Positions 20,918 to 32,350 of a stretch of DNA of 36,157 nt are shown piece by piece. Source of the DNA: Ruminiclostridium sp. GTDB lineage: Bacteria; Bacillota; Clostridia; Oscillospirales; Ruminococcaceae. The stretch lies in contig JAGAVH010000040.1 in the NCBI GenBank assembly GCA_017942025.1, positions 1-36,157 on the forward strand, given 5' to 3'. How positions within the stretch are numbered: position 1 is the stretch's first letter; the number at the start of each line of letters is the position of its first letter. A program made the translations under genes and the position numbers. The notes beneath the pieces are model-generated. The model made no database searches. It was given only the letters and a program-made list of their open reading frames with translations, and was not told where the DNA came from.

Positions 20918-21688
20918 ATGGCAAAGGTAATGCTTCAGGGTGATATGAGCTATATGGGTAAAAGGGTAACTGTTACTATGGACAGACCGATAGGAACAGA
21001 GCACCCAAAGCATCCGGGACTTATCTACCCCATAAACTACGGCTATATTGAGGGGCTTGTGGCAGGAGACGGAGAGGAGCAGGATGTATATCTTCTTGGC
21101 GTGGACAAGCCTCTTGAAAAGGCGGAATGTGTGATAATAGGCATAATCCATCGTCTTAACGACAATGAGGATAAATGGGTAGCCGTACCATCTGAGCTTG
21201 TCGGCAGTGAAATCTGTTACGAATGCAACATAATTCACGAAACTCATTTTCAGGAACAATACTACAATTCCGAGGTGTATGCTCTTTATGAAAAGACCTC
21301 AGGTGCAGTAATCTATACCGATGATGATGGAGTGAGAAAGTATTTTCTCATAAAGAATAAGAGCGGTCACATCGGTTTTCCTAAGGGACATATCGAATAC
21401 GGCGAAACAGAAAGGGAAAATGCTCTTCGTGAGGTGTATGAGGAATGTGGCTTAAAGGTTATACTGAATGACAAATTCCGAGCAGAATATACTTTCCGTA
21501 CACTCGAAAACACTGAAAAGACCTGCGCTTTTTATCTTGGCTATTTCGACAAAAAAGCCGCTGTTACCATTCAGCAGGAGGAGGTCATAGGCGACTGGCT
21601 TCTGACCTATGATGAAGCTATGGAAAAGCTGAACTGGGAACAGGATAAGGAAATATTAAGACAGGCAGAAAACTTTCTGAATAGCTAA
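20918..21688 (+). CDS. inorganic pyrophosphatase-like domain fused to Nudix hydrolase
   Basis: 256 residues. Residues about 1-110 resemble a soluble pyrophosphatase-like domain (VTMDRPIGTEHPKHPGLIYPINYGYI, then GDGEEQDVYLLG and IIHRLNDNEDKWV). Residues about 120-256 form a Nudix domain with an intact Nudix box: GHIEYGE, seven residues, REVYEECGL, which binds the divalent metals. The product likely cleaves a nucleoside-diphosphate-linked substrate. It is last in the nadB-nadC operon, which hints at a NAD- or dinucleotide-related role but does not prove it. AGGAGG ribosome site before the ATG. Confidence 0.88.
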   Translation: MAKVMLQGDMSYMGKRVTVTMDRPIGTEHPKHPGLIYPINYGYIEGLVAGDGEEQDVYLLGVDKPLEKAECVIIGIIHRLNDNEDKWVAVPSELVGSEICYECNIIHETHFQEQYYNSEVYALYEKTSGAVIYTDDDGVRKYFLIKNKSGHIGFPKGHIEYGETERENALREVYEECGLKVILNDKFRAEYTFRTLENTEKTCAFYLGYFDKKAAVTIQQEEVIGDWLLTYDEAMEKLNWEQDKEILRQAENFLNS

Positions 21689-21740: not shown

Positions 21741-21773
21741 ACGGGGATATCTTTTATAGGATATCCCGTTTTT
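21741..21773 (+). terminator. terminator of the nadB operon
   Basis: Hairpin with arms 21741-21751 and 21760-21769 (one bulged G) followed by TTTTT. It separates the NAD operon from the promoter at 21797. Confidence 0.85.
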
Positions 21774-21796: not shown

Positions 21797-21825
21797 TTTA
21801 CAACATATTTAAATTGTGCTATAAT
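21797..21825 (+). promoter_or_regulatory. sigma-A promoter of the acyl-conjugation operon
   Basis: TTTACA (21797-21802), 17-bp spacer ending TGC, consensus TATAAT (21820-21825). It falls inside the longest possible frame of the hydrolase, which shows that the first codons of that frame are not in the mRNA. Confidence 0.85.
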
Positions 21826-21870
21826 TCAAGAGTAAAAAAAGATGATAAAATACAGAAAGGTGTATTGGAT

Positions 21871-22821
21871 TTGAGCGTAGGACTTATAGTTGCCGGAGTA
21901 GTCGGCGGAGTAGCGGCACTTGGTGTTGCAGGCTCCTATGGTGTAGCAAATATTCTGTTCAAAAAAGTCATACCCCGTCAGGACGGAGTAAAGGTAGACC
22001 TTAACGAAATGGGTGACGGCGGCAAGTGGCAGGAATATATGAAGGTTATACAACCCAATAAGGAATATTTATTATCCTTACCCTGCGAGCATCTGAAGAT
22101 AAAATCAAAGGACGGACTCACCCTCTGCGGTGATTACTATAAAGCGGAGAATTCCTCTGATAAACTGGTTATCTGCTTCCACGGATATACAAGCGGAAGA
22201 ATGAGCAGCTGCTCCTTTGCGGCATTTATGTTAAAGGAAGGTTACGACTGCCTGCTGGTAGACAACCGTGCTCACGGTGACAGCGAGGGAGAATATATAG
22301 GCTTCGGTATTTTAGACAGATTCGACTGTATGTCCTGGATAAATTACGTAAACGAAAAATACGATAAAAAGGAAATACTGCTCTACGGAGTTTCAATGGG
22401 TGGTACAACGGTAATAATGGCGTCAGCGGATAAAAACCTCCCTGACAACGTAAAGGCTGTTATTGCCGACTGTGCGTTTACCTCTCCCTTTGACGTATTT
22501 TCTCACGTGCTTAAAAAGGATTATAAAATGCCTGCGTTTCCTACTATGGAAATCAATAATAAGATTTGCAAGAAGAAGGCAGGCTACGGCTTCAAGGATT
22601 ATTCCACTCTTGACGCTGTGAAGGAAACAAAGTGCCCGATTCTCTTTATCCACGGCGAAGAGGATAATTTCGTACCCGTTTGGATGAGCGACAGAAACTA
22701 CGAAGAGTGCCTTACCAAAAAGGCTCTTGTCAAGATAAAGGGCGCAGGACACGGTGCAAGCTACTACGAAAACGGCGAAGAATACAGAAAGGCTGTAAAG
22801 AACTTTCTTGATAACATCTGA
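21871..22821 (+). CDS. membrane-anchored alpha/beta hydrolase
   Basis: 316 residues from a TTG at 21871, 8 nt after AAAGGTG; a TTG at 21865 is a closer alternative, and the longest frame from 21814 overlaps the promoter. An N-terminal hydrophobic segment (VGLIVAGVVGGVAALGVAG) anchors it to the membrane. The catalytic triad is visible: nucleophile Ser in GVSMGG, Asp in HGEEDNFVP, His in GAGHG, with the oxyanion strand FHGYTSG. It resembles BAAT/YqkD-like hydrolases of Firmicutes that act on acyl esters or thioesters. It is the first gene of a five-gene operon with condensation, ACP and ligase genes, so a thioesterase-like or product-trimming role is possible (inference). Confidence 0.88.
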   Translation: MSVGLIVAGVVGGVAALGVAGSYGVANILFKKVIPRQDGVKVDLNEMGDGGKWQEYMKVIQPNKEYLLSLPCEHLKIKSKDGLTLCGDYYKAENSSDKLVICFHGYTSGRMSSCSFAAFMLKEGYDCLLVDNRAHGDSEGEYIGFGILDRFDCMSWINYVNEKYDKKEILLYGVSMGGTTVIMASADKNLPDNVKAVIADCAFTSPFDVFSHVLKKDYKMPAFPTMEINNKICKKKAGYGFKDYSTLDAVKETKCPILFIHGEEDNFVPVWMSDRNYEECLTKKALVKIKGAGHGASYYENGEEYRKAVKNFLDNI

Positions 22822-22835
22822 TAAATGGAGAGTAT

Positions 22836-24242
22836 ATGAAGGAATTTAACGTTAACGGAGCGGTGTTACAATGCTACCCCCTTACCGCTGCTCAGAGAAT
22901 ACATAACTATACAATAAGATTTTCAGCACATCAGGTACTTAATATAGGTACAGGCTTTTACGTACAGATTGAACTTAATCACGACAAGTTAAGAGAGGCT
23001 ATAAAGCTCGCATATCAGCAGTTCGATTCTATGAGAATAAGATTCTTAAAGGATGAGGACGATACTGTTTATCAGTACATAGTACCCAACGACGACAGAC
23101 AGGTGCCCTTTATAGATTTTTCCGACTGGAATGAAGAGGATGCTCACAAGGAGATGGAACGCTGGACTGCGGTTCCTTTTGAGAGATTCCATTCACCTAT
23201 GAATTATATAGCAATAATAAGACTTCCCGGCGGTTATAACGGAATCTACTTAAAGGTAGACCATATGACAATGGACTCAAGCTCCCTTATCATGTTCGAT
23301 GAATACGTGCTGAAGACCTATTGTGCATTATGCTACGGCACAGAAATGCCGAAGCCTATGATGTCCTATATCAAGGCGCTTGAAAAGGACCTTGAATATG
23401 AGGCAGGCTCACCTGCGCAGAAGCGTGATGAAGAATTCTGGATGAATGAAATCACAAAGAGCGAGCCTATATACACCGATTTCAACGGTATGGGCAGACT
23501 TATTACCCAGAGAAGAGAAAACAACAATCCCGACCAGCGTTGCGCTATGGTCGTATCAAAGAATCCCGAGGCGGCTATTGCAGTCTACAGACTTGAAAAA
23601 GAGCCCTCTGACAGACTTATGCAGTTCTGTCTTGACTATCAGATACCTATGGCAACACTTCTGCTTATGGGACTTCGTACAATCCTTTCAAAGTTCAACA
23701 ATGATGAAAAGGATGTATCGGTAAAGAGCTGTGTTGCAAGAAGAGGTACTCTTCTTGAAAAGAAATCAGGCGGTACAAGAATTCATTTCTTCCCCATCCG
23801 TACAGTAATCGAGCCTACCCAGACCTTCCTTGAAGGACTTCATATAATTCAGGCTGAACAGAACAAGCTGTTCCGTCATGCAAACTTCGATCCCATCGAT
23901 TATACTATAAGAAGAGCAAGACACTGGAAGAACCCTCCGGGAGCAAGCTACGAGAGTTTAAGCCTTACCTACCAGCCTATGACCTTACAGCGTCAGGAAA
24001 ACGAAATGCCTGATATAAAGTATAAGACTATGTGGTACACAAACGGCGTAGCAGGTCAGCCCTTATATCTCACGGTTATGCACAGAGCAGAGGACAACGG
24101 TCTGAACTTCAATTTTGAATACAGAAAGGACGCTGTTACCGAAAGCGAGATGGAATATCTCTACTATTACATCTGCCGTGCACTTTTCAGGGGCATTGAA
24201 GACCCTAACCGTACAATCGGTGAAATATTCGATTGGGTATAA
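22836..24242 (+). CDS. free-standing NRPS-type condensation-domain protein
   Basis: 468 residues, the size of one full condensation domain (about 450) and with no adenylation or carrier domain attached. The N-terminal PLTAAQRIHNY matches the C1 motif; the active-site motif HHxxxDG appears as DHMTMDS, keeping the second (catalytic) His and the Asp but changing the first His and the Gly. IHFFPIRTVI resembles the later NxxxxR region. Such proteins join an acyl group held on a carrier protein to an amine or hydroxyl. The next genes encode exactly a carrier protein and an activating ligase. GGAGAG ribosome site; 14 nt after the hydrolase gene. Acyltransferases of the WS/PapA type share this fold and are an alternative. 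Confidence 0.88.
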   Translation: MKEFNVNGAVLQCYPLTAAQRIHNYTIRFSAHQVLNIGTGFYVQIELNHDKLREAIKLAYQQFDSMRIRFLKDEDDTVYQYIVPNDDRQVPFIDFSDWNEEDAHKEMERWTAVPFERFHSPMNYIAIIRLPGGYNGIYLKVDHMTMDSSSLIMFDEYVLKTYCALCYGTEMPKPMMSYIKALEKDLEYEAGSPAQKRDEEFWMNEITKSEPIYTDFNGMGRLITQRRENNNPDQRCAMVVSKNPEAAIAVYRLEKEPSDRLMQFCLDYQIPMATLLLMGLRTILSKFNNDEKDVSVKSCVARRGTLLEKKSGGTRIHFFPIRTVIEPTQTFLEGLHIIQAEQNKLFRHANFDPIDYTIRRARHWKNPPGASYESLSLTYQPMTLQRQENEMPDIKYKTMWYTNGVAGQPLYLTVMHRAEDNGLNFNFEYRKDAVTESEMEYLYYYICRALFRGIEDPNRTIGEIFDWV

Positions 24243-24274
24243 TGAAATTATATATATAGAAAGGAACAGAAGAG

Positions 24275-24502
24275 ATGTTTGAACAGTTAAAGGAAATCAT
24301 TTTAAACTACGTTGAGGTAGATGCGGACTCTATCACAGAGGATTCAAGATTCATTGAAGATTTAGGCTTCAACTCCTACGACTTTATGAGCCTTTTAGGA
24401 GAGCTTGAACAGGAATTTGATATCACGGTTGACGAAAATCAGGTAGCTGACCTTCACACAGTAGGCGAGGCAGTAAAGTATATGGAAAGCCTCAAGAGCT
24501 GA
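24275..24502 (+). CDS. acyl/peptidyl carrier protein
   Basis: 75 residues, the normal size. The phosphopantetheine attachment Ser is in DLGFNSYDFMSLL (residue about 35), with Asn in place of the usual Asp before it. Helix 1 (LKEIILNYVEV) and the acidic helix 2 and 3 region are typical. It is not the fatty-acid synthase ACP by context: it lies between a condensation protein and an AMP-forming ligase, 14 nt before the latter. No phosphopantetheinyl transferase is in the window. Ribosome site GAAAGGA. Confidence 0.92.
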   Translation: MFEQLKEIILNYVEVDADSITEDSRFIEDLGFNSYDFMSLLGELEQEFDITVDENQVADLHTVGEAVKYMESLKS

Positions 24503-24516
24503 TAAAGGGAGAAAAT

Positions 24517-26061
24517 ATGGACAAGAATAAAATAAAGACTCTCCGTGATTTATACGAAGAAGCGGCGGCTCTTTACGGCGATGCTCCTTACGTAAAGGAA
24601 AAGGCAGGCAAGGAGATAGTTGAAAAATCCTTCTCACAGTTTGCCGATGATTGCCACAGAGTTGCAAACTATCTTCTTACCGAGGTCGGTGAAAAGCTTC
24701 ATGCGGCGGTTATAGGTCCTACAAGCTATGCCTATCTTGTGAGCTATTTCGGTTCGGTATCAACTGCAAATCCTATAGTTCCCCTTGATGCGCAGCTTCC
24801 TTGCCCCGACTTATGCGAGCTTTTACAAAGAGCTGATATAACGGTATTCTTCTATGACAAGAGATACGCTCCTATGCTGGATGCGATAAAGTCGGCTTGC
24901 CCCGAGGTAAAGCACTATATCTGCCTTCAGGAAAATGACGACGTTATCTCAACAGAAAAGATTGTAAAGGAATACGCACCTGCTGAAAAGCTTCCTGAAA
25001 TAAAGGAAAATACCTTAGCGGCAATTCTTTATACTTCAGGTACTACCGGCAAGAGCAAGGGCGTTATGCTGACACACGGCAACTTTATAGACAATGCTAT
25101 GTGCTGTGACGGTGAAAGCTCCCCTGGAGAATCAATACTTACAGTACTTCCTATCCATCACGTATATTGCTTTACCTGTGATATACTTTTAGGACTCCGC
25201 TACGGTACTACGGTATGTGTAAATGATTCTATGATGAGAATTGCGCTGAACTTAAAGCTGTTTCAGCCTACCTTCATCCTGCTTGTACCTATGATTGCAG
25301 AAACCATTTTAAAGCAGATAAAAGCAGCTTCAGCGGCAAAGCCCGAAATTCCTCCTCAGATGATAGCTCAGGCGGTATTCGGTGGCAGACTTAAAGGTAT
25401 CTACAGCGGTGGTGCATATCTTGCTCCCGAGATAACAAAGGCTTATAAGGAGCTTGGAATTCCGATTTCTCAAGGGTACGGTATGACAGAATGCTCACCC
25501 AGAATTTCTTCGTCAGTATTTACAGATGAAAACTACGGTGATGTTGGTACAGTAGTAAGAGGCTGTGAGATAAGAATAGAGGACGGCGAAATCGTTGTAA
25601 AGAGTCCTTCCGTAATGCAGGGCTACTACAAGGACCCCGAAGCTACAGCAGAGGCTCTTACAGAGGACGGCTGGCTTCATACAGGCGACCTCGGTTATGT
25701 AAAGGATAACCGTGTATATATCACAGGCAGAAAGAAAAATCTCATTATACTCAGCAACGGCGAAAACGTATCTCCCGAGGAGCTTGAAAACAAGTTTGCA
25801 GGCAAGGATATGGTAGCCGAGGTGCTTGTATATGCAGAGGAGGGCTATATCACAGCGGAAATAGTTCCAAATCCCGAATACTTCAAGGATAAGGAAAAGG
25901 CTGATATAGTCACAGCGTTAAACGAGCTTATAAAGGAAATCAACAAGACTGTAACCTCTTCAAAGACTATCAGAAGAATAAGACTTCGCGATAAGGAATT
26001 TGAAAAGACTACATCCAAAAAAATCAGGCGTCAGCAGTCCGAACAGGGCGAAATCATATAA
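24517..26061 (+). CDS. AMP-forming acyl/aminoacyl ligase (ANL superfamily)
   Basis: 514 residues. The core motifs are complete: YTSGTTGKSKGVMLTHGN (P-loop, near 171), QGYGMTECSP, DGWLHTGDLG, the hinge ITGRKKNLII and the C-terminal catalytic Lys in TTSKKIRR. It should activate a carboxylic acid as acyl-AMP and load it onto a thiol, here most likely the phosphopantetheine of the ACP encoded 14 nt upstream. The overall pattern fits long-chain fatty acyl ligases rather than amino-acid adenylation domains, but I cannot assign the substrate. It ends 22 nt before the SCP2-domain gene. Confidence 0.93.
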   Translation: MDKNKIKTLRDLYEEAAALYGDAPYVKEKAGKEIVEKSFSQFADDCHRVANYLLTEVGEKLHAAVIGPTSYAYLVSYFGSVSTANPIVPLDAQLPCPDLCELLQRADITVFFYDKRYAPMLDAIKSACPEVKHYICLQENDDVISTEKIVKEYAPAEKLPEIKENTLAAILYTSGTTGKSKGVMLTHGNFIDNAMCCDGESSPGESILTVLPIHHVYCFTCDILLGLRYGTTVCVNDSMMRIALNLKLFQPTFILLVPMIAETILKQIKAASAAKPEIPPQMIAQAVFGGRLKGIYSGGAYLAPEITKAYKELGIPISQGYGMTECSPRISSSVFTDENYGDVGTVVRGCEIRIEDGEIVVKSPSVMQGYYKDPEATAEALTEDGWLHTGDLGYVKDNRVYITGRKKNLIILSNGENVSPEELENKFAGKDMVAEVLVYAEEGYITAEIVPNPEYFKDKEKADIVTALNELIKEINKTVTSSKTIRRIRLRDKEFEKTTSKKIRRQQSEQGEII

Positions 26062-26083
26062 GAAAAAAGAAAGGGAAAAGAAA

Positions 26084-26644
26084 ATGACCTACGAGAAGAT
26101 TTTTGAAACCACAAAGAAGACCATTATGAAGAGCGATGTAAGCAACATCGAAGGCCACCTTGCAGTGCAGGTTGACATTGTCGGCGAGGGCGAAGGCGCA
26201 TTCTACATTGAGCTCAAGGATAAGCAGCTTTTTGTAGAGCCCTACGAGTACTATGATCACGACTGCAAGTTTATTATCAGCGCTGATGATTTCATCAAGA
26301 TGGTAAACGGCAAGCTCGATCCCGTTTTAGCTTACACAACAGGCAAGCTCAAGGTTGAAGGCAATGTTGATAAGGCACTCGAATTCAAGAAGATCGTTGA
26401 TTCTGTAAAGAAGCAGGAAAAGAAGGCGAAGTCTGCTACAAAGACTGAAAAGAAGCCTGCTGCAAAGAAGCCTGCTGCTAAGAAGGCAGAAGCAAAGCCC
26501 GCTGCAGAAAAGAAGGCTCCTGCTAAGAAGACAGAAGTAAAGCCTGCTGAAGAAAAGAAGGCTCCCGCTAAGAAGGCAGAAGCAAAGCCTGCTGAAGAAA
26601 AGAAGGCTCCTGCAAAGAAGACAACAACAAAGAAGACAAAGTAA
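26084..26644 (+). CDS. SCP2 sterol/lipid-transfer domain protein with Lys-Ala-Pro tail
   Basis: 186 residues from the ATG at 26084, with AAAGGGAAAAG upstream; a longer frame from 26000 runs through the ligase gene and is rejected. Residues 1-110 form an SCP2-like domain (GEGEGAFYIELKDKQL, CKFIISADDFIKMVNGKLDPVLAY and TGKLKVEGNVDKAL are family-typical), which binds hydrophobic acyl chains. Residues about 112-186 are a low-complexity tail rich in Lys, Ala and Pro, including three 15-residue repeats, strongly basic and resembling histone H1-like tails. Being last in the operon, it may hold or deliver the lipid substrate or product; the tail may bind nucleic acid, acidic wall polymer or phospholipid. 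Confidence 0.9.
   Translation: MTYEKIFETTKKTIMKSDVSNIEGHLAVQVDIVGEGEGAFYIELKDKQLFVEPYEYYDHDCKFIISADDFIKMVNGKLDPVLAYTTGKLKVEGNVDKALEFKKIVDSVKKQEKKAKSATKTEKKPAAKKPAAKKAEAKPAAEKKAPAKKTEVKPAEEKKAPAKKAEAKPAEEKKAPAKKTTTKKTK
26489..26623 (+). repeat. three tandem 45-bp coding repeats in the SCP2 protein tail
   Basis: Units 26489-26533, 26534-26578 and 26579-26623 encode variants of E(A/V)KPA(A/E)EKKAPAKK(T/A). Differences are mostly synonymous or Ala/Val/Glu changes, and length variation between strains is likely. Confidence 0.9.
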
Positions 26645-26659
26645 GATTTCTGATTTACA

Positions 26660-26689
26660 GCCTCCCTTTCGGGAGGCTTTTCTTTTTTT
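26660..26689 (+). terminator. terminator of the acyl-conjugation operon
   Basis: A 7-bp GC stem (GCCTCCC / GGGAGGC, 26660-26666/26671-26677) with loop TTTC and a TTTTCTTTTTTT tail. Confidence 0.95.
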
Positions 26690-26896: not shown

Positions 26897-29800
26897 ATGA
26901 GTTATACCGGAAAAAGAAAAACTGTTTACGTTGCAATATCCCTGCTTCTGACTATCGCTATGATATTCGGAATGTTTCCCGTAACGGCGTCGGCAACTAT
27001 GCCTTCTACCGCTGACACGCCTGCGGCTACCTCGCCCTTCCCTGTGGATTACGATCCCAACGAGGGAACTGTAAAATACGGCTATTCGGGTGAAATAGGT
27101 ATGCGACCTGAAAATGACCTTAATAATATGTATGATAAGGGTGATAAGGTTGTATATTTCCCTGATGACGTAGCAAAGGACAAGGATACGTCAGGAAAGC
27201 TTTACTTCCCGAACTATAACCCATCCGATCCTTATTACGATTATACCGATATGTTCAACCACGCCCTCGGAATGTCAAGAGAACGTGATAATTGCGCTAT
27301 TTTTGTAAATCCGGGTGTTTACTATTTTACAGGCTCAGTGTATCTGTGGGGCAGTACGGCAATAAACAGTATTGCAGGCGAAACAGCCTTTGTCATAAAG
27401 CCCAATTACAAGGATAAGGACGGTAACTCCGTTGACGTAAACGGCTTCTTTGTAAATGGAGATCTTTCCGAAACCTATGCCTGGTACAGCTCTGCAAAAA
27501 TATCAGATATAGTATTTGTTGTAGAAAACGCACATAATAGCTTCAAGCCTACAAGTAGCGTAAAGACCATTATGTCAAATCTCTGCTCGGATAATATACA
27601 GCCGGTAGGCGAAGAATTTTCTCTTTTCTACAGAATACGCACAAAGTATGCCTCTATTGACAATATAGCGGCGTCAGGCTTCGGATGCTTCCAGCGCTGG
27701 TGCTTTATGGATATGCTTACCCGTGTAACAAATCTGACCATAGGTCCTACAAGACTTGTATACTACGGTGTACAGACAAACGACGCCTTCTTCTATGACA
27801 GCTATCACTACGGCGGATATTATACCGACAATGACGGTCTGCATCAGTTACCTTTATTCCAGATAAACTTCAGTATGGGTACTACGGTATTTTCAAACCA
27901 CTATATAGGTAACTACTACTTCTCCCGAAACGGCGCAGGTTGTTGGTGTCCTCATACCACCTATTCAGATATCACCTTTGAAAGAGTGTATAACTTTGTA
28001 ATGGATACAACCGTTACCTCCAATGCGGTAAGCGGATGTCTTTTCAAGGATGGTGCCTACAACGATATTGCTGAATATTTCGAAGGTCAGGGACTTACTC
28101 CCTTTGATTTCTGGGAAAGATACTGGGATGCCGAGCAGAAGAAATTCATATATACCAGCAAGGGATATATAATCCGTGATACTATTACCGGTGACAAGCT
28201 GAGTTCGGCTAACCATGCACATGATCAGAATATTACTATGATACAGCTTCACGGTGGTACAGCCTTTACACAGAATAAGATAGAATGTGATTCTCTTGAA
28301 TGGACCACTCTTGTGGCTCTTTCAAACTCTGAATGGGTAGCAAGCTATTCCGGAAAACGTGTAAACGGTAACAACGTTTATTTTTCCGATAATGCTTTTA
28401 AAATCAGAGACTGGGATTATGCAAATCTTATGGTGGATGACTGGAAGGGCGGTAGGCCTTTTACAGAAGGCTGGTATGACAGAACTGAAATAGTATGGGG
28501 CGAAAGAGGTTGGAACAATTCCGACGGAACTCCTGCTATGGGCTGGGTAGGCAAAGACGGCAACAAGGATGTTTCCTGGGTGACTGATGATTTTATCTAC
28601 GTTTCACCCGAATTTGGCAGATATGTTGATATGTCCGCCTTCAGAAGTCCCCGCACTCTTACTTACGGCTATTCCTCTCAGGGTAAGTTCGGTGCGGATG
28701 AGGATGCTCTTGAGAGAGCGGGCATCGAGGACAGATGTTACTATGATTTAAAATCAGGCAAGTATGAGATGAAATCCTTCACAAAGGATTTCGGTGGCTT
28801 CAGCTGGAACTACAGCAGTAACCACGAAAAGCTTCAGGAAGCCTTTGACTATATAGCAAGCACAGACGATACTATTCTTTATATCGAAAGCGGCGAATAC
28901 CGTATAGACAGACCTATCGTGCTGAGAGGTGGCGCAGAGTACAGAGTGATCTTTGAATACGGCGCTTCTATCAAAACAAACAAGACAAACGACGTGTCAG
29001 GTGCGGGTATATTCGTTATGAGCGCAGATGATAATGCACCGATAAGCGGCTATATTACAAATCTTTCCCTTACAATGCAGTCAACAAACAGCAGTGCCTT
29101 CTTCAATGTAAATACAGACGGACTGTATATAAATGTAGTCAGCATCCAGCGTGGCGTCGGTTGCTTTACAAACTGCAAGCTGAAGAACACCATCATTCAG
29201 GGTGGCGCTATCCAGTACTGTGATTACGGCTTCTTCTACAAGACCGTAACAGACAATACGGTTGTAAAGAACGTGTACGGTACTTCAAGCACCTGGGTGG
29301 AGACCGAGGACGGTATTACTCCCGGTGATATAAATTATCGTTATTTTATATCAAATTCTGACTTTGCTCATTCCACCTGGAGAGGCTGCTGGCTGGAATT
29401 CGGTCAGTTCTCCAACGGTAAGAAGCTTATGGGCGATGGCAACAGTGTCTACAGAGGCAATATCATCGACTATACCTATAACTACAGCTTCGGCAAGAAT
29501 GATATGTTTGTCGGCAATACCATGACAAGAGCGTCATATGGCAGTATAACAAACCACATGACTACCTCCAATTTCCCGATAGACCTGCCCGACGCTCTTA
29601 CAAATAAGCCTATGGTTATGTTCCATATAAACGATGGCGTAAAGGTTATAGGTAACGCTGTGCTTGGTACTATGAACCGTGCCACACTCTTTGCGTGCTT
29701 TGACAGTCCCACTATCCGCCATAAGAATTCAAGCGGGGCAGAAGTGGTTTCTATAAGCAATGCCCGTGTGGCAGGTAACCTTGTAACTACTGCGGCAACA

Positions 29801-32350
29801 GGTGATTACAAGGTAGAAGAGCCCTTTACTCCCTTTGGCAAGGCGAATAACGTAGACGTGGATTCGTCAAAGAATAACGCCTTCAACTTCCACGCTCTGT
29901 ATTTTATCGATAGGGCAGACGATCCCGAAACTCCTGAAAACGAGACCTTTAAAATCACAAAGAACGAGGTGCTCAGTTGGTGTATCCCCGGTGTAAGAAC
30001 CTACGTAAACGGCGAATATATCGAGGTAAAGGATACTGCAAGAAGCTCGCAGGTGAGTGATATAAAAACTCCCCAGCCTCCTCAGGATGAAATATATGAC
30101 GTTCCGAATATCTGGACTGATGAGATAAGAAAGACAGAGTATCTGCTTTACGATTTCAAGGACAGAACAAAGCAGGAAACGGATAAGCTCTCAAAGTTAT
30201 TTGCTGACAGTATTGACAATACTACTATAGCGGCATATCTGCGCTCTCGCTTCAACGTGGCGGTACTGCCTGATTCAAACGGAGAAAAGGTATCCTTTGA
30301 CGCCAACAAGCTGAAGAATTACAGCTATAAGCAGATATACGATATACTTGCCCAGACTCTTATATACGGTGTAGAAAAATCTCCTTCGGGCGAAAACTCC
30401 TTCTTTATGGATGGCTCCCGTGAGGGTACGGGAGATAAAGGCGACGGCACAACAAACAGCGCTGATAACAAGAATAAGCCTACCTACAGCGTAGTATTCA
30501 GAGACAACCGCATCACGGGAGAAGCGCTCCAGAGTGTTACTGCAAGCATTTATGCAAACTATCGCTATTCATATGCATGGCAGGGTAAGAGAAGCACGAT
30601 ATTTATAATGTATGAGGATGCAGATTATTACTACGGCTTGTCACTTGGTTATGCTGATGGAACAAACGGTATCTTCTGTGCACCTTGCAAGATAGTAAAG
30701 GGTTATTATGAAGAGCTTGGAAAGTTAGGCGAAGTACATTTTCAGACGGGTGTATATACCGAAAATAACTATAACAGAACAAAATATATAGATCCCTTCA
30801 GCGGTATTTCAAGACCTCACAGTGGCGAGCAGACAAAGACCATTATGGGCGACTATACAACTATAGAAATGTTCGGGGGCAGCATCTTCAATTATGATAC
30901 TGTTATTTTAGGTGTTGATTTTACCTGCGAGTATAATGATGCTTATGATACGGTATCTATGTACGCGACTGTTGATTTCGAAAAAATCGGCGTTGATAAT
31001 TCATATAAGCCCGGACTTAAAGCTACCACAAGAAAGGTATGGCTGGGCACCTATGAACTTAACGGCAAGGATAAGGTGTTCGGACTCTGGGCAGGCGATG
31101 AGATGTGGGTGGAAAGTGTTCAGTTTGAATACTATCCCAAGAAGGAATCCACCTGCAAGCATTCCTTTACGGATAAAATTACCCGTACAGGTCATTGCAC
31201 AAAGGATGCTGTGGTAAGACATACCTGCTCAAAGTGCGGTTATGAATATGAAGAAATGGAAGCGGCGTCAGGACACGTATTCTTCGATAAGAGAAGCGGA
31301 GATAAGATACTTCGTACCTGTAGAGATTGTGGCTTTGCATATCTTACAGATGAGCCTTTTACCTATGAGTGCCAGCATTCATATAACGAAACCGTTATAC
31401 AGAAGCTCACCTGTGTAACGGATGGTATAGTTAATTATACCTGCAAATATTGTGGTGAGGAATATACTAAAAACATTACCGCAACAGGACACAATTATAC
31501 AGTTAAGGTTATCAATCCTACCGCAGTTGATGAGGGTTATACTCTCCACACCTGCGAAAAATGCGGTGACAACTACAAGGATAATATAACGGCTGCTTTA
31601 GGCGGTCTTGCTGACAGTAAAACCAATATCGTGACAGGTATCGCAAACGGCGGTAAATACTATACCGAGGATACCCTTACCTTTGTTGCGATAGGCGCCA
31701 ACAGCAGCATAAAGCCTGTAGAAAAGGCGGAAAGATATGTATTCTCCGATTGGAACGTAACTCCTGAAAGCGGAATAGAAAAATCAGAGGGTACAAATTC
31801 CTTTATCGTACACGTAGCAGGAAGCTATACGCTTCAGGTAAGATTTGACAAGCAGGTATATAAAAACGGAAGCTGGACTGCAACCTCCGACTCGGAAACT
31901 ATAAAGGTAAGCTTCACCGTCGAAAAACGTGCGGTTCCGCCTAGCCAGAAGCCTGACGGAAAACCTGAAACAAATAAGCCTGAAACGAATAAGCCTTCTT
32001 CCGATAAACCGGGTACAAGTAAGCCTGAAACCGATAAACCCGGCACAAGCAAGCCTGAATCCGATAAACCGGATAATCCCGAAAGCAAGCCGGAAGGCTC
32101 TGATACTAATTCGGAAGATTCAGACGTAAGTCAGGATAATCAGGAGACTAACAGCGGCAATTCTTCGTCTGCTTCGCCTGACGGAAATGGCGGTAATCAG
32201 ACTCCGACATCTGATGCAGAAAGCTCTGAATCAGGTGAAGTAAGCACTGATACAGGTTCTGATATGACGCTTTTAATCGTCATTATAATTGCTGTAGTGG
32301 TGGTGGCTGTCGCCTCGGTAATTATTGTGAAAAAGGTCAAGTCGAAATAA
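26897..32350 (+). CDS. giant secreted beta-helix surface protein with Zn-ribbon-like repeats and C-terminal anchor
   Basis: 1817 residues. A signal peptide (1-33, cleavage after ASA) leads to two pectate-lyase-like right-handed beta-helix regions (about 60-640 and 640-1060), each opening with a similar segment (NCAIFVNPGVYYFTG versus DTILYIESGEYRIDR). About 1200-1415 is a beta-rich, lectin-like region. About 1418-1570 carries CxxC units of the form TCSKCGYEYEE, TCRDCG, TCKYCGEEY and TCEKCGDNYKD. A region near 1590-1675 resembles an Ig-like fold. Then a Pro/Lys/Ser/Glu-rich spacer (PETNKPSSDKPGTSKP type), a transmembrane helix (about 1788-1811) and the tail KKVKSK. No LPXTG motif. It likely handles polysaccharide at the cell surface or adheres to it; catalytic residues were not identified. 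Confidence 0.9.
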   Translation: MSYTGKRKTVYVAISLLLTIAMIFGMFPVTASATMPSTADTPAATSPFPVDYDPNEGTVKYGYSGEIGMRPENDLNNMYDKGDKVVYFPDDVAKDKDTSGKLYFPNYNPSDPYYDYTDMFNHALGMSRERDNCAIFVNPGVYYFTGSVYLWGSTAINSIAGETAFVIKPNYKDKDGNSVDVNGFFVNGDLSETYAWYSSAKISDIVFVVENAHNSFKPTSSVKTIMSNLCSDNIQPVGEEFSLFYRIRTKYASIDNIAASGFGCFQRWCFMDMLTRVTNLTIGPTRLVYYGVQTNDAFFYDSYHYGGYYTDNDGLHQLPLFQINFSMGTTVFSNHYIGNYYFSRNGAGCWCPHTTYSDITFERVYNFVMDTTVTSNAVSGCLFKDGAYNDIAEYFEGQGLTPFDFWERYWDAEQKKFIYTSKGYIIRDTITGDKLSSANHAHDQNITMIQLHGGTAFTQNKIECDSLEWTTLVALSNSEWVASYSGKRVNGNNVYFSDNAFKIRDWDYANLMVDDWKGGRPFTEGWYDRTEIVWGERGWNNSDGTPAMGWVGKDGNKDVSWVTDDFIYVSPEFGRYVDMSAFRSPRTLTYGYSSQGKFGADEDALERAGIEDRCYYDLKSGKYEMKSFTKDFGGFSWNYSSNHEKLQEAFDYIASTDDTILYIESGEYRIDRPIVLRGGAEYRVIFEYGASIKTNKTNDVSGAGIFVMSADDNAPISGYITNLSLTMQSTNSSAFFNVNTDGLYINVVSIQRGVGCFTNCKLKNTIIQGGAIQYCDYGFFYKTVTDNTVVKNVYGTSSTWVETEDGITPGDINYRYFISNSDFAHSTWRGCWLEFGQFSNGKKLMGDGNSVYRGNIIDYTYNYSFGKNDMFVGNTMTRASYGSITNHMTTSNFPIDLPDALTNKPMVMFHINDGVKVIGNAVLGTMNRATLFACFDSPTIRHKNSSGAEVVSISNARVAGNLVTTAATGDYKVEEPFTPFGKANNVDVDSSKNNAFNFHALYFIDRADDPETPENETFKITKNEVLSWCIPGVRTYVNGEYIEVKDTARSSQVSDIKTPQPPQDEIYDVPNIWTDEIRKTEYLLYDFKDRTKQETDKLSKLFADSIDNTTIAAYLRSRFNVAVLPDSNGEKVSFDANKLKNYSYKQIYDILAQTLIYGVEKSPSGENSFFMDGSREGTGDKGDGTTNSADNKNKPTYSVVFRDNRITGEALQSVTASIYANYRYSYAWQGKRSTIFIMYEDADYYYGLSLGYADGTNGIFCAPCKIVKGYYEELGKLGEVHFQTGVYTENNYNRTKYIDPFSGISRPHSGEQTKTIMGDYTTIEMFGGSIFNYDTVILGVDFTCEYNDAYDTVSMYATVDFEKIGVDNSYKPGLKATTRKVWLGTYELNGKDKVFGLWAGDEMWVESVQFEYYPKKESTCKHSFTDKITRTGHCTKDAVVRHTCSKCGYEYEEMEAASGHVFFDKRSGDKILRTCRDCGFAYLTDEPFTYECQHSYNETVIQKLTCVTDGIVNYTCKYCGEEYTKNITATGHNYTVKVINPTAVDEGYTLHTCEKCGDNYKDNITAALGGLADSKTNIVTGIANGGKYYTEDTLTFVAIGANSSIKPVEKAERYVFSDWNVTPESGIEKSEGTNSFIVHVAGSYTLQVRFDKQVYKNGSWTATSDSETIKVSFTVEKRAVPPSQKPDGKPETNKPETNKPSSDKPGTSKPETDKPGTSKPESDKPDNPESKPEGSDTNSEDSDVSQDNQETNSGNSSSASPDGNGGNQTPTSDAESSESGEVSTDTGSDMTLLIVIIIAVVVVAVASVIIVKKVKSK

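Follow-up and report, generated by a model that had tools for sequence, protein, structure and literature searches.

A probable fatty acid amide biosynthesis operon of Ruminiclostridium with accessory hydrolase and SCP2 genes

The closest described relative of the operon considered here is the fatty acid amide (FAA) system of Coprococcus eutactus, which comprises OaaA, OaaACP, and OaaC (structure 12KH) and yields oleoyl aminovaleric acid (PMC13142362). According to the same source, the condensation step of the OaaC system itself releases the amide (Fig. 1 legend), and FAA clusters of the human gut make lipids able to act on host receptors. The operon in question lies in a 36,157-nucleotide stretch of Ruminiclostridium sp. 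(contig JAGAVH010000040.1 of assembly GCA_017942025.1), the whole of which is called the window below. It consists of five + strand genes, from position 21871 to 26644, encoding an alpha/beta hydrolase, a free-standing condensation protein, an acyl carrier protein (ACP), an AMP-forming ligase, and an SCP2 protein, and, judging from sequence, it very probably directs the biosynthesis of an FAA (N-acyl amide). Products of such bacterial pathways can mimic animal signaling lipids. The N-acyl synthases of the human microbiome are single enzymes that make the same kind of product, with a different protein family and mechanism. Chang (2021) is said to be an earlier source for the Oaa system.

The condensation protein carries this assignment. 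It has 468 amino acids, with a single Condensation domain (residues 12 to 464) and no fused adenylation or carrier domain, and its nearest solved structure is OaaC (12kh), matched over the full length at 373 bits and 38% identity, whereas the next solved structure scores 38 bits. The DHMTMDS motif noted in the preliminary description is present and is of the DHxxxDS type shared with the Oaa system; in aligned relatives, its His and Asp are found in 71/71 and its final Ser in 67/71. The inserted-helix stretch of OaaC, which follows PIYSD, aligns with the window protein free of gaps, and residues 220 to 228 form a helix in the structural model. By fold match, that model is closest to an acyl-chain-binding starter condensation domain, and at this level of comparison the tunnel-less structure earlier named as a possible objection was not encountered; OaaC was not among the listed fold-library matches (entries to 2026-04-08). 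Because the protein is plainly OaaC-like, its chemistry would be of a known kind, and a new kind of conjugation chemistry was rejected on the same grounds.

The neighboring genes complete the set. As in the Oaa system, ACP and ligase are free-standing and adjacent to the condensation gene, and the genome encodes a PF01648 protein of 199 amino acids (G000:C23) that, by its length, reads as an Sfp-like phosphopantetheinyl transferase (PPTase). The window thus has the traits by which a C-FAA cluster is recognized: a stand-alone condensation protein that lies far closer to OaaC than to the next solved structure, a (D/H)HxxxDS-type motif, an adjacent ligase and ACP, and a PPTase in the genome. Homodimers dissociated by holo-ACP and the formation of FAAs from free amines are features of this class rather than data on the window. 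The core of condensation protein, ACP, and ligase is recognizably of a known kind, so the earlier view of the gene set as uncommon holds only in part: these three proteins are the defining FAA layout, and the hydrolase is fixed in the clade. Lipoinitiating (starter) condensation domains of nonribosomal peptide synthetases, such as those of RzmA and CDA synthetase, share the fold and the acyl donor with the window protein, but they sit within large multidomain proteins, deliver their acyl group to an aminoacyl carrier protein, and match at no more than 38 bits; the window protein stands alone, with one ACP and no downstream acceptor carrier.

The coordinates of the features are collected in Table 1. 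As described previously, the five co-directional genes share one predicted promoter and one predicted terminator, and their gaps, earlier given as 14 to 32 nucleotides, measure 14, 32, 14, and 22. The promoter matches 11/12 consensus bases and is the best of 18 candidates between 21600 and 26900, where shuffled sequences average 10.1 candidates. A listed TTG at 21814 sits inside this promoter, and the likely start of the hydrolase is therefore TTG 21871. Pfam recognizes all five proteins (Abhydrolase_1, 1.8e-17; Condensation, 9.3e-36; PP-binding, 1.7e-12; AMP-binding, 4.7e-62; SCP2, 2e-15); among the NCBIfam matches listed for them, all fall below the curated cut-offs. The NSYD serine of the ACP, also named previously, was found, and Lys502 of the ligase is presumably catalytic.

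Table 1. Predicted features of the operon and its flanks in the window
Feature	Position	Strand	Basis
Nudix hydrolase	20918-21688	+	
Terminator-like site 3' of the upstream Nudix gene	21744..21772	+	Sequence scan
Sigma-A type promoter, TTTACA-17-TATAAT, TG before -10	21797..21825	+	Consensus scoring; kept in sister locus L167 before SCP2
Alpha/beta hydrolase, predicted N-terminal membrane helix, 316 aa	21871..22821	+	Pfam, start from TTG 21871
Free-standing condensation protein, FAA (OaaC) family, DHMTMDS motif	22836..24242	+	Pfam, structure-sequence match, tree
Acyl carrier protein, phosphopantetheine Ser34 in GFNSYDF	24275..24502	+	Pfam; Ser in 53/53 aligned
AMP-forming acyl ligase, C-terminal Lys502	24517..26061	+	Pfam; Lys in 61/61 aligned
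SCP2-domain lipid-binding protein, Lys/Ala/Pro-rich tail	26084..26644	+	Pfam; start by comparison
Intrinsic terminator, 8-pair stem + T-run	26659..26689 (stem 26659-26678)	+	Sequence scan
1817-aa protein directly 3' of the operon	26897-32350	+	

Relatives were assembled as 77 non-redundant loci, window included (after removal of 13 whose condensation protein exactly duplicated that of another locus), from 247 genomes of the family, 31 of which had a match at E 1e-20, and from a genome contig collection (57 loci) whose titles include Goat_Colon, Roe_deer_Colon, Sheep_Rectum, Water_deer_Cecum, and Lapin. The close clade comprises 62 loci, the window among them, whose condensation proteins share at least 60% identity with that of the window; the other 15 were treated separately. 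In the close clade, the hydrolase gene directly precedes the condensation gene in 56/56 evaluable loci, and the ACP (55/56), ligase (52/52), and SCP2 (19/50) genes follow it; PPTase genes lie downstream in 4/50 and upstream in 1/49, and a TetR gene lies upstream in 23/49. TetR and PPTase genes were recognized by reading, with Pfam confirmation on examples (TetR_N in L103; PF01648 in L081 and L065, where the PPTase gene is inside a related operon). Adjacency of the genes in related genomes, set beforehand as a test of the operon, was thus borne out. Among the 15 distant loci, the hydrolase was found in L049 only; condensation, ACP, and ligase genes occur without it in seven (L051 to L054, L058, L059, and L114), L050 has condensation and ACP genes with no ligase recognized, L055 to L057 and L060 have the condensation gene alone within the stretch covered, and L061 and L062 (25% identity) differ from the rest.

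A wider search of 391 genomes of the class (20 matches) and 394 of the order (6 matches), window included in each, added 20 of 24 available loci; G262, G352, G442, and G518, of the same genus as two included, were left out. Hydrolase, condensation, ACP, and ligase genes occur in that order in ten of these (L125 to L128, L130 to L132, and L140 to L142), although in L128 a PPTase gene separates ACP from ligase; the other ten have no such hydrolase before the condensation gene, L129 being covered for only 680 bases upstream. In a tree of 95 condensation proteins (quick search; three with fewer than 400 amino acids dropped; canonical condensation domains not among the sequences), OaaC groups with L134, L136 to L138, L058, and L059, next to L055 to L057 and L144. 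The nearest relatives of OaaC (L134, L136 to L138, L058, and L059) have ACP and ligase genes and lack a recognizable hydrolase or SCP2, unlike the window, which adds both; for the neighborhood of OaaC itself, the comparison covers the three genes named in PMC13142362. The window branches apart from these, in an arm where the hydrolase is general except in L050 and a nested group (L051 to L054, L114, L129, L133, L135, and L143) with HHxxxD(S/A) in 8/9; L070 and L096 start too near the contig end for the hydrolase to be judged. Long branches (L062, L139, L140, L050, L049, L142, and others) make the deep placements unsure. The hydrolase thus characterizes a single branch of FAA clusters, its gains or losses falling on few deep branches, and gene order indicates that the window belongs to a conserved sub-type of these clusters, with the hydrolase as fixed partner in its clade. 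Two FAA-type clusters can be found in one genome: G181 carries L034 (hydrolase, DHxxxDS) and L051 (no hydrolase, HHxxxDS).

The main text of PMC13142362 contains none of the terms "SCP2," "sterol carrier," and "hydrolase," and the sub-type with hydrolase, SCP2, and TetR is not described in the sections consulted. A literature search that did not cover Chang (2021) found no paper combining SCP2, condensation domain, and ACP with ruminococci or an operon. The accessory genes are thus provisionally novel.

In the proposed pathway, the PPTase encoded elsewhere in the genome would make holo-ACP, the ligase would adenylate a free fatty acid and load it onto holo-ACP, and the condensation protein would join acyl-ACP, as donor, to a free small amine, as acceptor, the amide being freed without a thioesterase. 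These ligase, ACP, and condensation steps are deduced by homology with the reconstituted OaaA/OaaACP/OaaC system, which supports the route to an N-acyl product suggested in the preliminary description. The membrane-anchored hydrolase could, as a tentative addition, work at the inner membrane face, the likeliest of its candidate roles being to supply the ligase with acyl chains released from membrane glycerides or esters. As a less certain step, SCP2 would bind the acyl chain or the amide and keep it soluble between the enzymes and the membrane. Gene content and order, promoter, terminator, conservation, and family membership are established at the level of sequence, whereas the enzymatic steps, the acyl chain, the amine, the roles of hydrolase and SCP2, and the TetR ligand are inferred.

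Several points weigh against this assignment. At 38% identity to OaaC, amine and acyl specificity are not transferable, and the function is read from the genes, with product and substrate proposed. The ligase has 4-coumarate CoA ligases as its best solved relatives, none of them close, and loading of ACP rather than CoA is deduced from the neighboring genes. The role given to the hydrolase comes from fold and topology; the fold matches fix no substrate, and the topology signal is weak. Finally, the pathway does not depend on SCP2, nor is SCP2 confined to it, given its presence in 19/50 evaluable close-clade loci and its lone occurrence in locus L167 of the sister species.

The distribution of SCP2 bears on whether it belongs to the pathway at all. 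SCP2 relatives occur in 59/247 family genomes, namely in 20 of the 21 with a hydrolase orthologue (10 within the operon and 10 outside it) versus 39 of the 226 others (Fisher p 4e-13, not corrected for relatedness), and the ten best-scoring matches in the 247 genomes all adjoin a condensation gene. It is somewhat doubtful, given these figures, that SCP2 is a passenger, that is, a general lipid-binding protein that some lineages merely happen to carry in the operon, although the 39 genomes with SCP2 and no hydrolase orthologue, the lone SCP2 of L167, and the unlinked copies would fit such a reading; no constant partner was found for the latter in the 13/20 regions where SCP2 was among the chosen open reading frames (ORFs), overlapping longer ORFs having displaced it in the other seven. 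Position also speaks against a passenger, since SCP2 follows the ligase in L142 and most SCP2-bearing clusters and precedes the hydrolase in L132, L140, and L141. The two positions imply that SCP2 entered the cluster on more than one occasion or changed place inside it.

The ORF at 26000-26644 starts too early for the window SCP2, and comparison with L063, L064, and L065 places the start at ATG 26084. The tail is a 45-base tandem repeat of 3.5 copies (26464-26620). The basic tail, earlier presented as distinctive, is not general: among the 20 operon SCP2 ORFs of the 77-locus set, 15 have only 112 to 137 amino acids, several with a short Lys-rich end, and five (window, L063, L064, L047, and L113) have 185 to 221, the window and L113 ORFs including an early start. 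A role for this tail as a general pathway feature was rejected on this count. As called, the four SCP2 ORFs of the wider 20 loci have 107 to 222 amino acids. A second, unlinked SCP2 of the window genome (L122:1495-2040, - strand) carries a KPAAKK-type tail at its N terminus instead of its C terminus. In G005, a genome with no condensation match, a PPTase-like gene directly follows SCP2 (L150:3473-4725), and in L147 a condensation-like ORF lies near an unlinked SCP2.

The hydrolase is more closely tied to the condensation gene: its 21 matches of at least 300 bits in the 247 family genomes all lie beside one, and the next match (259 bits, G157:C33) is located elsewhere. Its serine triad (Ser175-Asp265-His294, numbered from TTG 21871) is intact in the alignment of close-clade relatives, an IPRQ motif follows the helix, and the net charge around the helix averages +0.8 before and +1.6 after it (31 proteins). 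The fold matches comprise Pf2001 esterase, monoglyceride lipases, feruloyl esterases, and the thioesterase DcsB. Monoglyceride lipases act on animal signaling lipids. Release of the product by a thioesterase activity of the hydrolase, as first suggested, is doubtful and was rejected, since condensation itself frees the amide in the OaaC system (PMC13142362). Instead of supplying acyl chains, the hydrolase might act as a proofreader that, like a type II thioesterase, clears wrong acyl groups from ACP, which we regard as unlikely. Less likely again is an amidase that cleaves the amide of its own operon, setting its level or recovering acyl chains; the monoglyceride lipases among the fold matches and the intact triad would suit it, but driving a synthase and a hydrolase of its product from the same promoter would be a futile arrangement without some spatial or temporal separation. 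In G027 (C68:20754-23902), one of the 21 genomes with a hydrolase orthologue, the locus looks degraded, with an in-frame TAG in the hydrolase gene and a condensation protein aligned over 108 residues only; the SCP2 match there spans the full domain length. A different alpha/beta hydrolase (18 bits to the window family) lies 3' of the ligase in L143 (+3246 to +4064) and L058 (+3201; both counted from where the condensation gene starts), two clusters without the usual hydrolase.

That the acceptor is unlike those of OaaC, the product being an N-acyl amino acid, an acylated peptide, or an acylated alcohol, is improbable: the modest identity to OaaC, the separate arm of the tree, and the presence among the fold matches of the condensation model of SgcC5 and VibH, stand-alone condensation proteins that perform other acyl transfers, leave room for it, but motif and neighbors match the FAA set, and no second ACP-like or ligase-like gene was recognized in the stretches covered for the 62 close-clade loci, except that the L035 ligase is split into two ORFs.

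The history of the operon can be followed in the sister species (genome G1006). At L167, NadB and Nudix proteins are 94% and 90% identical to those of the window, and behind the Nudix gene come the same promoter (-35, 17-nucleotide spacing, TG, and -10 kept; spacer letters different) and then directly SCP2 (L167:3543-4142), which is 81% identical over 108 residues and likewise long-tailed. The hydrolase, condensation protein, ACP, and ligase have no match in the 15.4 kb of L167, nor has the condensation protein in the whole of G1006; at seven other loci of the genus, no operon gene was found beside Nudix in the stretches covered. In the simplest history, the operon arrived in the common ancestor of the two species and four genes were then lost in G1006; L167, where the promoter persists with SCP2 as the only gene of the operon, has the appearance of a natural deletion. 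Alternatively, the four genes may have been inserted before an older SCP2, L167 being the pre-insertion state. Condensation relatives occur in 8/40 genomes of the genus, window included, the seven others at 41 to 80% identity (one a fragment), whereas relatives in another genus reach 87%, which points to horizontal exchange.

Regulation appears to differ between the window and its relatives, where the TetR gene is divergent. The palindrome TTCGACCGnCGGTCGAA near the hydrolase start scores at least 14/17 in 25/28 loci with a TetR gene versus 11/29 without (57 loci), N being always counted; 50 shuffles per locus average about 10 with a maximum of 14. The consensus was read off L036, L038, L104, and L108, themselves in the count; for L101, shuffled sequence scores as well as the real one. 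There is good evidence, at the level of sequence, that TTCGACCGnCGGTCGAA is an operator in these relatives, through which the TetR repressor probably controls the operon. The window scores 9 and therefore has no such operator. Nor was a TetR gene recognized next to its operon, and a TetR-fragment search of its genome, run without a positive control on an assembly 83% complete, gave no match. From the tree, the window lineage probably lost both TetR and operator.

The operon and its relatives extend the FAA system within the Oscillospiraceae of the gut, many of which, to judge from record titles, come from herbivores, and name three likely accessory functions, namely hydrolase, SCP2, and a TetR with a defined operator, from which predictions follow on the source of acyl chains and the switching of production. 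A broader picture, to which we give a low probability, is a TetR-controlled line from membrane lipid to signal lipid, in which the hydrolase would strip own or absorbed glycerides, SCP2 would ferry the chains, the core would make amides, and TetR would sense the fatty acid or the amide, the whole being a self-feeding FAA sub-type spread horizontally among herbivore-gut Oscillospiraceae and other families.

Two further genes flank the operon. The upstream Nudix hydrolase gene, which lies downstream of nadB-nadC and is separated from the operon by the terminator-like site, encodes a protein whose N-terminal stretch resembles inorganic pyrophosphatase (PF00719, E 4e-5) and which is matched in 23/40 genomes of the genus. 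The downstream protein, whose start is signal-like and whose C terminus forms a hydrophobic anchor, has no Pfam family above the cut-off and no match in L167; its first part is present in L063, up to the contig end.

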